A stretch of 56,905 nucleotides of DNA from Prochlorococcus sp. AG-402-N21. GTDB lineage: Bacteria; Cyanobacteriota; Cyanobacteriia; PCC-6307; Cyanobiaceae. The stretch covers positions 1 to 56,905 of the forward strand of contig QCIW01000007.1 in assembly GCA_003216435.1 (NCBI GenBank). Direction: 5' to 3'. Positions 10,409-14,352 of this stretch are shown here, piece after piece. The stretch's first letter is position 1. The number at the start of each line of letters is the position of its first letter. Both the position numbers and the translations under genes were made by a program. The notes under the pieces are model-generated. The model was not told where the DNA came from. It saw nothing but the letters and a program-made list of their open reading frames with translations, and did not search any database.

Positions 10409-12664
10409 TTAAAGCTGAATAGGATCTGGGTCTACAGAAAGAGTAATCCCTTTAGGAATCCCATCCCAAAGTGAGGAAGGACTTGGGAGTGGTAATGGAC
10501 TTAACTCAGGACCATGGAGTAAAAGTTGCCATCTACTTCTACTTGATACTCTCGAGACAAGAGCAGGTGCTGGGCCAACAATATTCCAGCCATAATCATC
10601 ACAAATTGGCCTTAACTTTTCAACTAATTTTTTTGCTACCGAAGCAGTCTGAACATCAGAGTCTCCCGCGAGACGTAATAAGCAGGCACGACTATAGGGG
10701 ACTAAACCAGCATCACGCCGTACTTTTGATTCTTTATTTAAGAACTCCTCATAACGGCCATCTTCCAAATGTCTAACGACTGGATGATCTGGACAGTAAG
10801 TCTGAACCAAGACCTCTCCTGGAAGTGAACCTCTCCCAGCCCTTCCAGCTAATTGCATAAATAGCTGCAAAGCTTGTTCTTCGGCCGACAAGTCTGGGCG
10901 ATATAGCAACCCATCTGCAGCTAAAACTACAGCCAAAGTGACTCGATGCAGGTCCATCCCTTTGGCGAGCATTTGAGTACCTATTAAGACATCAGCTTCA
11001 CCAGCTGCAAACCTCTCGAGCAATCTTCGATGCCCATCACGGCCGGAAATGGAATCCCTATCAAATCGTAATACTCTCAAACCCTCAATTTCTCTTGTGA
11101 GATGCTCTACAACTCTCTGAGTCCCAGTCCCAAAAGGCTTGAAAGCAGTTGAACCACACTCGCCACACTTCATCTCAATCCTCGCTCGGTAATCACACCA
11201 ATGGCAACGAAGCCATTGGAGATCTTCCCTCCCTTTGTGAACAGTTAAAGCGACATCACAATTAGGGCATTGAACAACTTCTCCACAGCTTCTACAACTT
11301 ATAAAACTGCTATATCCTCTCTTAGGCACCAAAACAACAGCTTGTTCTTCGCACTGAGTTAATTTAAGTAGACGTTTTCTTAAAGAATGACTTATAAGCC
11401 CACGATTTCCATTCGCTAACTCTATTCGCATATCAACAACATGAACAGATGGGAGGGGTTTTCTCGAAATCCTGTTAGCAAGGCGAGCCATCTTAATAGG
11501 GCCCTCAGGGGATAATCTCCTCCATGTAGCTAAGGAAGGAGTGGCGCTTCCCAAAATAATCTTTGATCCTTCTCTTTTGGCACGATCCAATGCCATATCT
11601 CGCGCGTGATAACAAGGCATAGGAGATTCTTGCTTATATGAAGTGTCATGCTCTTCATCAAGGACAATTAAGCCCAATGGAGACAATGGTAAGAAAACAG
11701 CCGAACGTGTTCCTATAACTACAAATCGCTCAGGAGAATGCAAAATTTTCTGCCAAGTAGCAATTCTCTCTTTAACTGAACAATGACTATGGTATTCCAA
11801 TACTTTTTCCCCAAAACGTCTTTTAAATCGGTCAACTAATTGGGGGATTAATCCAATTTCAGGAGTTAAAACCAAACAATGCCTGCCTAGTTCCAACTCT
11901 TTATAAGCAATTTGTAAGTAAACCTCTGTCTTTCCAGATCCAGTAACTCCCCACAGTAAAAGAGCAGATCCAGGTGGAAGCGAATCAAATAAATCGATAG
12001 CAGATTCTTGTTCTTCTGTAAGAGATTGAGGAGCTTCCAGAGTGGACGAAGAATGATTATCAACTTCACGACGCACTTCCTGTTGAGAAGATCGTGTTTT
12101 CCTCTGCTTAGTAACTACGCCAATAGACATCAGCTTGTTAACAAGTCCCGTAGAAAAACCTTCTTTATTTAAATCTTGCAACCATGCTCCTCCTCCCTTT
12201 GCGATCAGAAAAGTTTTTAATTGCTTTTGGCGATTAGAAAGAGCTCTCCCATGATAGGCCTCCAGAGTGACCCAATAAAATTTCTTTGGGATAAGATTCT
12301 TTCTCTTCTGCTGTCCCAACCAACCAGGAGGTAAAGCAGTTTTTAACATTCTAAAAGAAGTTGTGCAATAAGAAGAGGCCATTGCATCTAACCATTCACG
12401 CCATCTAGAGTCGACAGCAGCATGCTGAACTAGTCCTTCGATATTGGCTAAACAAAATTTCTTTTTATAAGAATCTAATTGCGACTCATTCTGAATTTCT
12501 TTAATAATCCGCTTCTTTACAACCAGTCCATGCATTGGACGACCTTTAAGCCTTACTAGAACTAAATCCCCAAGATCAATTCCTAACTGAAGTCCATCTA
12601 AATAAGTAAAACACCTGCCCTCTCTACCAATTTCCAAGCACACATCCAATTCTGTATATTCCAT
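10409..12664 (-). CDS. priA: Primosomal protein N' (replication restart helicase)
   Basis: 3'-to-5' superfamily 2 helicase that reloads the replisome at stalled forks and interacts with the SSB tail. The 751-aa protein has the N-terminal DNA-binding half, Walker A LLWGVTGSGKTEVY, the DEEH box (LIVLDEEHDTSYKQ), and eight zinc-binding Cys in four pairs (CRSC, CPNC, CHWC, CGEC). Motifs V and VI are at VLIGTQMLAKGMD and LAGRAGRG. The N-terminal part is shorter and more divergent than in E. coli. ATG at 12664, directly downstream of a strong hairpin (12680-12720) in what would be its leader. It converges with the TPR-like gene. Confidence 0.96.
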   Translation of the reverse strand: MEYTELDVCLEIGREGRCFTYLDGLQLGIDLGDLVLVRLKGRPMHGLVVKKRIIKEIQNESQLDSYKKKFCLANIEGLVQHAAVDSRWREWLDAMASSYCTTSFRMLKTALPPGWLGQQKRKNLIPKKFYWVTLEAYHGRALSNRQKQLKTFLIAKGGGAWLQDLNKEGFSTGLVNKLMSIGVVTKQRKTRSSQQEVRREVDNHSSSTLEAPQSLTEEQESAIDLFDSLPPGSALLLWGVTGSGKTEVYLQIAYKELELGRHCLVLTPEIGLIPQLVDRFKRRFGEKVLEYHSHCSVKERIATWQKILHSPERFVVIGTRSAVFLPLSPLGLIVLDEEHDTSYKQESPMPCYHARDMALDRAKREGSKIILGSATPSLATWRRLSPEGPIKMARLANRISRKPLPSVHVVDMRIELANGNRGLISHSLRKRLLKLTQCEEQAVVLVPKRGYSSFISCRSCGEVVQCPNCDVALTVHKGREDLQWLRCHWCDYRARIEMKCGECGSTAFKPFGTGTQRVVEHLTREIEGLRVLRFDRDSISGRDGHRRLLERFAAGEADVLIGTQMLAKGMDLHRVTLAVVLAADGLLYRPDLSAEEQALQLFMQLAGRAGRGSLPGEVLVQTYCPDHPVVRHLEDGRYEEFLNKESKVRRDAGLVPYSRACLLRLAGDSDVQTASVAKKLVEKLRPICDDYGWNIVGPAPALVSRVSSRSRWQLLLHGPELSPLPLPSPSSLWDGIPKGITLSVDPDPIQL

Positions 12665-12668
12665 AAAA

Positions 12669-12880
12669 CTAAGAACACTTGCCGACTTCGAAAGTTTTTC
12701 TTAAACTTTGAGAGTCGGCATTACTAAGCTTATTGCCGAGAACGTAAAAGATTGTGTTCAGAGGGAAGGTACGCAGTTCGAACAAAACGGGCAAACTCCC
12801 TTTTAGTTCAACCGGCCTGAGAAAGCCCCAAACAATCTTGATACGATCACTCAATAGACTATTCATTTTCACTCTCAATC
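12669..12880 (-). other. Structured leader or small RNA candidate between priA and rpoD
   Basis: The 395-base stretch between priA and rpoD has no convincing gene. Its priA-proximal half is rich in inverted repeats. Hairpin A joins 12680-12687 to 12713-12720 (8 bp), continued inward by 7 bp with a 5-base loop. Hairpin B would pair 12715-12720 with 12734-12739 (6 bp), using the same bases as A, so the two exclude each other. A third stem joins 12748-12755 to 12832-12839 (8 bp) around a G/C-richer segment. Read on the reverse strand these lie just upstream of the priA ATG, as in an attenuator; strand and boundaries are inference. I could not match tmRNA, 6S, RNase P or SRP RNA. The rest (12881-13059) should hold the rpoD promoter, which I cannot place. 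Confidence 0.4.
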
Positions 12881-13059
12881 ACTAATAGTTACTTCTAATC
12901 GCATAAGTAAAATCATTTATTTCTTTTAAATATTGAATAGATGATTAGATCATATGCGGTTCACAGAAAAACTCATTATGTATTTTGGTGTAAATGACAT
13001 TCGTGTGCCCTAAATAATTTTCTCTTTACCAGACCCTTCCTTCATCTTGTTAATTAGAC

Positions 13060-14352
13060 ATGAGTACTGTTGCCGCCCAAACATCAACCGAGTCCAACAA
13101 GGCCGATGCCTTAAAAAAAACTGCGGTTGCTGCAGTTGAAAAAGCTGTAGTAAAAAATCCCAAGAAAAAGAAAGTTAGCAAGACATCAACCAATCAGAAA
13201 ACAACTCCAGAAAACGTAATTTCTCAAGTAAATGATCTAGATAAAGCTGCAGATGAATTACTTGCTCAAGCAGAAAATACAATCCCAACTTCTGATTTAG
13301 ATATAGAAGAAAAAGATAATCAAGTAATCTCAGCCTCAGACTTAGAGCTTGATGCGAGAGCAAAAGCACTGGCGAGTGTAAAGGTAGGCCCCAAAGGTGT
13401 TTATACAGAAGACTCCATAAGAGTTTATCTTCAAGAAATAGGTCGCATCAGACTACTCAGACCAGACGAAGAGATTGAACTAGCAAGAAAAATTGCTGAT
13501 TTACTTCAACTAGAAGAACTAGCCGCTCAATTCGAAAGCGAAAATGGCCATTACCCAACCACAAAAGAATGGGCAGCATTGGTTTCAATGCCATTAATGA
13601 GATTCAGGCGAAGAGTAATGCTAGGAAGACGGGCGAAGGAGAAAATGGTTCAATCAAATTTACGATTGGTTGTCTCAATTGCAAAAAAATATATGAATCG
13701 AGGGCTTTCTTTTCAAGATCTGATTCAGGAGGGAAGTCTCGGCCTTATTCGTGCTGCAGAAAAATTTGATCATGAGAAAGGATATAAATTTTCTACTTAT
13801 GCAACCTGGTGGATTAGACAAGCCATCACAAGAGCAATAGCTGACCAAAGTAGAACAATTCGATTACCAGTCCACCTTTATGAAACTATCTCAAGAATCA
13901 AAAAAACCACCAAAGTTCTAAGTCAAGAGTTTGGGCGCAAACCCACAGAAGAAGAAATTGCAGAAAGCATGGAAATGACAATCGAAAAACTACGTTTCAT
14001 TGCCAAAAGTGCTCAACTACCAATATCACTAGAGACACCTATTGGGAAAGAAGAAGATTCTCGACTCGGTGACTTCATCGAAGCTGATATTGAGAACCCT
14101 GATCAAGATGTAGCGAAAACACTCTTAAGAGAAGACTTAGAAGGTGTTCTAGCAACTCTTAGTCCGAGAGAAAGAGATGTACTTCGTCTTAGATATGGTC
14201 TAGATGATGGACGAATGAAAACTCTTGAAGAAATTGGTCAAATTTTTGATGTCACCCGCGAGCGAATCAGGCAAATAGAGGCCAAGGCGCTTAGGAAACT
14301 AAGGCACCCAAATAGGAATGGAGTCCTTAAAGAATATATAAAATTCAATTAG
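13060..14352 (+). CDS. rpoD: Primary RNA polymerase sigma factor (group 1)
   Basis: Directs RNA polymerase to housekeeping promoters. The 430-aa protein has an Ala/Lys/Thr-rich, probably disordered first 110 residues, then region 1.2 ([16 protein letters not shown]), region 2 with the -10 recognition helix ([19 protein letters not shown]), region 3 ([15 protein letters not shown]), and region 4 with the -35 reading helix ([20 protein letters not shown]). Its sequence identity through regions 2-4 and the long N-terminus fit the essential SigA-type factor rather than the group 2 factors. ATG at 13060; hemC follows after 144 bases. Confidence 0.95.

Follow-up and report, generated by a model that had tools for sequence, protein, structure and literature searches.

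The described RNAs that come closest to the element reported here are 6S RNA (RF00013; Yfr7/SsaA), the Prochlorococcus RNAs Yfr1–Yfr21, and the glnA/Downstream-peptide and other leader motifs of marine cyanobacteria. Within the lineage, stand-alone RNAs that keep a fixed neighbour have precedents in Yfr7, whose neighbour gene is purK, and in Yfr1 at trxA-guaB (PMC1242208). With 6S RNA the element shares the size of a stable RNA, a long-range closing helix, a single copy throughout the lineage and a fixed neighbour, but it differs in its locus, its conserved sequence and its likely pseudoknot, and it has no Rfam match. It resembles the Yfr RNAs as a lineage-specific, structured and intergenic ncRNA, whereas none of these is placed beside priA or rpoD in the tables of PMC1242208 or in Table 1 of PMC2518516. 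The glnA/Downstream-peptide and related motifs have in common with it a conserved RNA structure that possibly acts as a leader, the element being set apart by the lack of an Rfam match, and rpoD is not mentioned in the main text of the 2010 motif paper (PMC2864571). When the window and 14 of the 70 homologs described below were compared with Rfam 15, no family scored above its gathering threshold, and weak snoRNA-type matches in the window as well as sub-threshold matches in the homologs were taken as chance. A description of the element was not found in the literature searched, which included parts of PMC1242208, PMC2518516, PMC7368042, PMC5069720, PMC6778093, PMC2758279, PMC5607370, PMC2864571 and PMC2662882; RNA-seq or start-site maps of the group may list it. 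Our best reading is that it represents a new family of structured ncRNA.

The element is located between two divergent genes of the window, by which we mean the whole stretch of 56,905 nucleotides from Prochlorococcus sp. AG-402-N21 that was analysed. On the minus strand priA (10409–12664) was identified by its match to TIGR00595 (526.3 bits, cut-off 230), and on the plus strand rpoD (13060–14352), encoding the primary sigma factor, matches NF005643 (724.7 bits, cut-off 500); rpoD is downstream of the element and runs in the same direction. We compiled 70 priA-upstream stretches from relatives (30 loci and 40 further stretches), and the element could be aligned in all 70 of the orthologous priA-rpoD spacers. 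rpoD was divergently adjacent to priA in every relative whose compared stretch reached that far, and wherever a stretch included rpoD the element was found upstream of it on the same strand, so that its existence and its place are established by comparison. In all 70 homologs the conserved unit on the plus strand consists of TTGC, TAnnnT some 17 nt further on, the spacer often ending in a T-run, and then about 145 nt.

The same spacer had attracted attention in a preliminary description of this DNA because of three copies of a GCCGA-type element, and these are indeed present as TGCCGACT at 12680–12687, AGTCGGCA at 12713–12720 and TGCCGA at 12734–12739. They allow two competing stems in this genome: copies 1 and 2 form an inverted repeat of 18 nt with 83% complementarity (12680–12697/12703–12720), copies 2 and 3 a 9-nt stem with 89% complementarity (12715–12723/12731–12739), and as 12713–12720 is common to both, the two stems are mutually exclusive. 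The 55 nt from 12674 to 12728 have a fold energy of −21.4 kcal/mol (z −5.6) when read as plus strand and of −18.7 kcal/mol (z −4.9) as minus strand, and none of 200 shuffles was as low on either strand. The stems were correctly observed, and for this genome they exceed what chance would give.

What is conserved in the family is a structured RNA element at 12708–12852 of the plus strand, where the RNA model matches with 84.5 bits, the window being among the sequences from which the model was built. Its GC content (46% for 12712–12852) stands out from the 32% of the sequence just before it and the 29% of that after it. The conserved blocks of the approximately 145-nt element include CAGAGGGAAGAC…GAAG and GGTCTGAGAAAGCCCCTGAC, and its core reads GGGAAG…CTGAGAAAG. 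Covariation was analysed in alignment A1, which holds 59 of the 70 homologs and excludes six near-duplicates (L028, L030, L046, L056, L072, L083) and five divergent homologs (L071, L073, L074, L075, L085) that were later recovered by the model. The consensus structure contains hairpins 1 and 2, two inner helices, and a long-range helix GCAG/CTGC that connects the loop of hairpin 2 with the 3' end. In this pseudoknotted structure, which was derived in part from the same alignment used for the pair counts, 93.2% of 1692 cells are paired and both sides change at 20 of 29 pairs. Double changes were found in 92 cells compared to 23.8 in shuffles, and by any measure none of 500 shuffles reached as high. 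Sliding the partners by 1–3 columns as a control reduced pairing to 29–46%, and a fully nested alternative reached 86.8%, below the pseudoknotted structure. All four pairs of the long-range helix show double changes, and at columns 44/142 an A-U pair replaces G-C in L016, L017, L027, L041, L051, L053, L062, L076, L079, L080 and L084. Hairpin 2 is kept with at least 5 of its 6 pairs in 41 of the 59 sequences, and only 37 of the 59 have the full long-range helix in addition. These comparisons establish the pairing of the element and make a pseudoknot likely.

The window itself deviates from the consensus register, with 3/6 pairs of hairpin 1, 4/6 pairs of hairpin 2 and 2/4 pairs of the long-range helix, and has shifted helices instead. 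Hairpin 1, a consensus hairpin in the alignment, is present as an inverted repeat in a shifted register (12715–12720/12734–12739, together 12715–12739), and the second stem of the preliminary description is this genome's version of it. In place of the long-range helix there is a longer nested stem, in which AAGATTGT at 12748–12755 pairs with ACAATCTT at 12832–12839 over 8 nt with 100% complementarity, the consensus equivalent being columns 41–44/142–145. Alignment and covariation place the 5' arms of the two inner helices, flanking the conserved motif GAGGGAAGG, at 12757–12773, and their 3' arms, together with a conserved asymmetric loop (GGCCTGAGAAAGCCCC), at 12813–12832, position 12832 being able to pair in just one of two helices. 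As the long-range helix has turned into a nested stem in the window, pseudoknotted and nested forms may be alternatives, and such an alternation may echo the earlier idea of competing hairpins, with different stems.

Directly in front of the element a promoter is suggested by conservation alone, with a −35-like TTGCCG at 12679–12684 and, after 17 nt, a putative −10-like TAAACT at 12702–12707. TTGC is present in all 14 diverse sequences aligned, one of which (L121) could not be placed beyond this motif, and TAnnnT occupies the −10 position in most homologs. A generic consensus promoter scan of the window did not call this promoter; for a stand-alone sRNA, the TTGC-17-TAnnnT signal is what comparison shows to be conserved. 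In many homologs the −35 region (12675–12696 in the window) shows by eye a palindrome, ACTTG-N9-CAAGT, which could be a transcription-factor site. This promoter-like signal together with an excess of G-U pairs favours the plus strand, which is very likely the transcribed one: read as plus strand, the alignment contains 97 G-U cells and 29 A-C cells. Helix 4 (columns 57–65/130–136) shows the opposite with 11 A-C and 4 G-U cells, and single-sequence folding energies do not separate the strands (mean z −1.67 for plus, −1.74 for minus). From promoter conservation, the model match and the zone of a 3' hairpin we infer transcription of about 234 nt on the plus strand (12713–12946), both ends being predicted, and the functions considered below are likewise inferences.

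Model R1 matched 129 of 151 genomes of the family (Cyanobiaceae), with a single match in each and many of them outside the model-building set; priA was detected in 140 of the 151. Over the class, R1 matched 36 of 291 genomes, all within the family, and model R2 matched 65 of 388 genomes at E ≤0.1, of which 64 belong to the family, the weakest at 1.6e-8. The remaining match (G276, E 0.09) is regarded as chance, being antisense within a 210-aa ORF away from priA and rpoD, an ORF that we take from its motif to be of the LOG/lysine-decarboxylase type. Outside the family, neither R1 in the 291 class genomes nor R2 in the 388 genomes gave a reliable match. The element is present as a single copy, and the genome to which the window belongs gave a single match better than E 2. 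Named carriers are, among others, Synechococcus WH7803 (locus L146) and single-cell genomes of Prochlorococcus, a 23-base pattern being present in 21 DNA stretches. Copies on phages or plasmids were rejected, as the element was absent from the phage and plasmid records searched and 14 viral contigs gave no match to the model. The model search also gave no match in the genomes of genus g8 and in G050; in the spacers read from these (L121, L123 and L125 in g8, L126 in G050) rpoD is still upstream of priA. A TTGC-promoter-like stretch is visible by eye in L121 and L126, and in these spacers the element looks diverged, rebuilt or lost.

The preliminary description had linked the hairpins to priA and to the arrangement of attenuators and riboswitches, which here would mean a minus-strand leader with the two stems as alternative states. 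Both stems are present and mutually exclusive here, and the end of the stem is 15 bases from the priA ATG, as had been described (12665–12679 intervene), but the first stem (12680–12720) overlies the promoter-like region and is specific to this genome. In the 70 homologs this region folds with a median of −4.35 kcal/mol compared to −21.4 kcal/mol in the window, the lowest of all. Among 21 aligned sequences (alignment A2 holds 21 of the 70 homologs) 69.3% of the cells are paired, and four pairs show changes on both sides, a number reached by 148 of 500 shuffles. Cells with double changes number 9 compared to 4.4 in shuffles (3 of 500 as high; 21 sequences), so a weak covariation signal may be present, and the residual pairing is partly due to a conserved AAGTTT/AAACTT-like sequence near the −10. 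The covariation across relatives that had been proposed as a check was found in the element, as compensatory changes, while the pairing of the first stem is not kept. Because that stem lies largely over the −35/−10 region and its pairing is lost in relatives, and because the plus strand is indicated by the promoter-like signal and by the G-U pairs for the most part, gene, strand and main stem of the original proposal are not supported. Nor are the two alternative stems both conserved on the priA strand. The conserved RNA most likely runs on the plus strand towards rpoD and is not a priA leader, and an attenuator of priA is to be considered highly improbable. The argument for structure rather than protein held up better. 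An ORF on the minus strand (12669–12878) is open in the window, with 69 aa instead of the 65 residues first given, and its third-position GC (47.1%) is above that of priA (30.3%) and rpoD (27.1%), as noted before. Many compensatory changes are seen in the element and the peptide shows no conservation: just 12 of 70 homologs have any minus frame without stops, each plus frame is open in at most 13 of 70, the length differences fall into all three residue classes modulo 3 (22, 27, 21), and the ORF has no NCBIfam match. Frame, length and NCBIfam results refute the peptide, so that a small protein gene on either strand has practically no chance of being the explanation. A second RNA of the 6S type, binding RNA polymerase, would agree with the comparable size, the rod-like core and the position adjoining rpoD, but with E limits of 5 and 1 the RF00013 covariance model found nothing in the window and 14 of the 70 homologs. 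The true 6S RNA, detected in 35 of 40 genomes, lies at another locus of the same genome (G000:C2:133714–133892), and on these grounds a 6S identity was rejected. 6S RNA has an open central bubble, and the element instead shows an asymmetric 7-versus-1 internal loop; we regard a second 6S-like RNA as very unlikely.

The closest contest is between a stand-alone RNA and a cis-acting 5' leader of rpoD, in which the element would be part of an untranslated leader of about 345 nt and would control production of the primary sigma factor. In favour of a leader are the shared strand and the position upstream of rpoD wherever rpoD was within the compared stretch, as well as the aptamer-like fold with its highly conserved loop, a conserved covarying structure as expected of a riboswitch or cis-regulatory leader. 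That the element is linked to rpoD says little by itself, as it is no less strictly syntenic with priA. Between the end of the element and the rpoD ATG there is a long gap of variable length (141–261 nt, median 208.5, in the 64 of 70 homologs with a start codon found), a Shine-Dalgarno-like sequence precedes rpoD in 4 of the 64, and pairing of the element with rpoD start regions was no better with its own than with others' (mean rank 0.45 in 64 of 70 homologs), which led us to reject such pairing. A motif like GTTCGCGTG or TTCGCGTG was seen right before the rpoD ATG, without Shine-Dalgarno sequence, in the Prochlorococcus-type L020, L023, L024, L032 and L044. Downstream of the element a hairpin (12911–12946 in the window, without T-run) is variable in sequence and conserved in position, being enriched from +45 to +105 after the element with a mean z of −1.45 and 22 of 70 homologs below −2, compared to −0.26 and +0.07 for the zones adjoining it. 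Between the element and rpoD neither intrinsic terminators (6 of 70 homologs, 10% in shuffles) nor the T-runs typical of them show enrichment, and in view of this and the missing T-run an intrinsic terminator was rejected. The lack of enrichment weakens the stand-alone RNA and fits a leader, whose expression platform is in turn not apparent, given neither terminator enrichment nor preference for its own start. In 10 high-light Prochlorococcus sequences (L114, L089, L043 and L046 were dropped, as the motif used did not place them), conservation is seen both in the element and in a block immediately in front of rpoD, and the hairpin separating them varies. Such a second block would be expected of a proximal promoter and speaks against a leader; we read the arrangement as a putative sRNA, its 3' hairpin and then an rpoD promoter. 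In L103–L113, which are high-light Prochlorococcus, about 75 nt before rpoD are nearly invariant and AAGGAG/AGGAG precedes the ATG, unlike the rest of the family. Taken together we see about an even chance for a stable stand-alone sRNA of about 235 nt, the rpoD leader follows as a serious possibility at somewhat less than that, and all other modes jointly are improbable.

The explanation we prefer, with fair though not high confidence, is a conserved structured ncRNA encoded by the plus strand in the spacer that separates the divergent priA and rpoD, with its own promoter, a core of about 145 nt and a 3' hairpin. A promoter at about 12679–12707 would drive the RNA towards rpoD, the core would fold into hairpins and the long-range helix, with a pseudoknot involving the loop of hairpin 2 possible in most members, and the 3' hairpin, about 55–100 nt beyond the core, would end an RNA of about 235 nt. 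The conserved purine-rich internal loop would then bind a protein or another partner. As this loop, and not a single-stranded seed, is most conserved, binding of a protein or small molecule is favoured over a plain antisense action.

Prochlorococcus and marine Synechococcus, the ocean's most abundant photosynthetic cells, have few regulatory proteins. An RNA that most of the family has retained at a fixed site next to the gene for the main sigma factor is a strong candidate core regulator. More tentatively, and rather unlikely on present evidence, it could be a pseudoknotted RNA that senses a ligand or protein and serves specifically the gene for the primary sigma factor of these ocean picocyanobacteria. 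If true, this would mean control of the housekeeping sigma factor at the RNA level in organisms with very few regulatory proteins.
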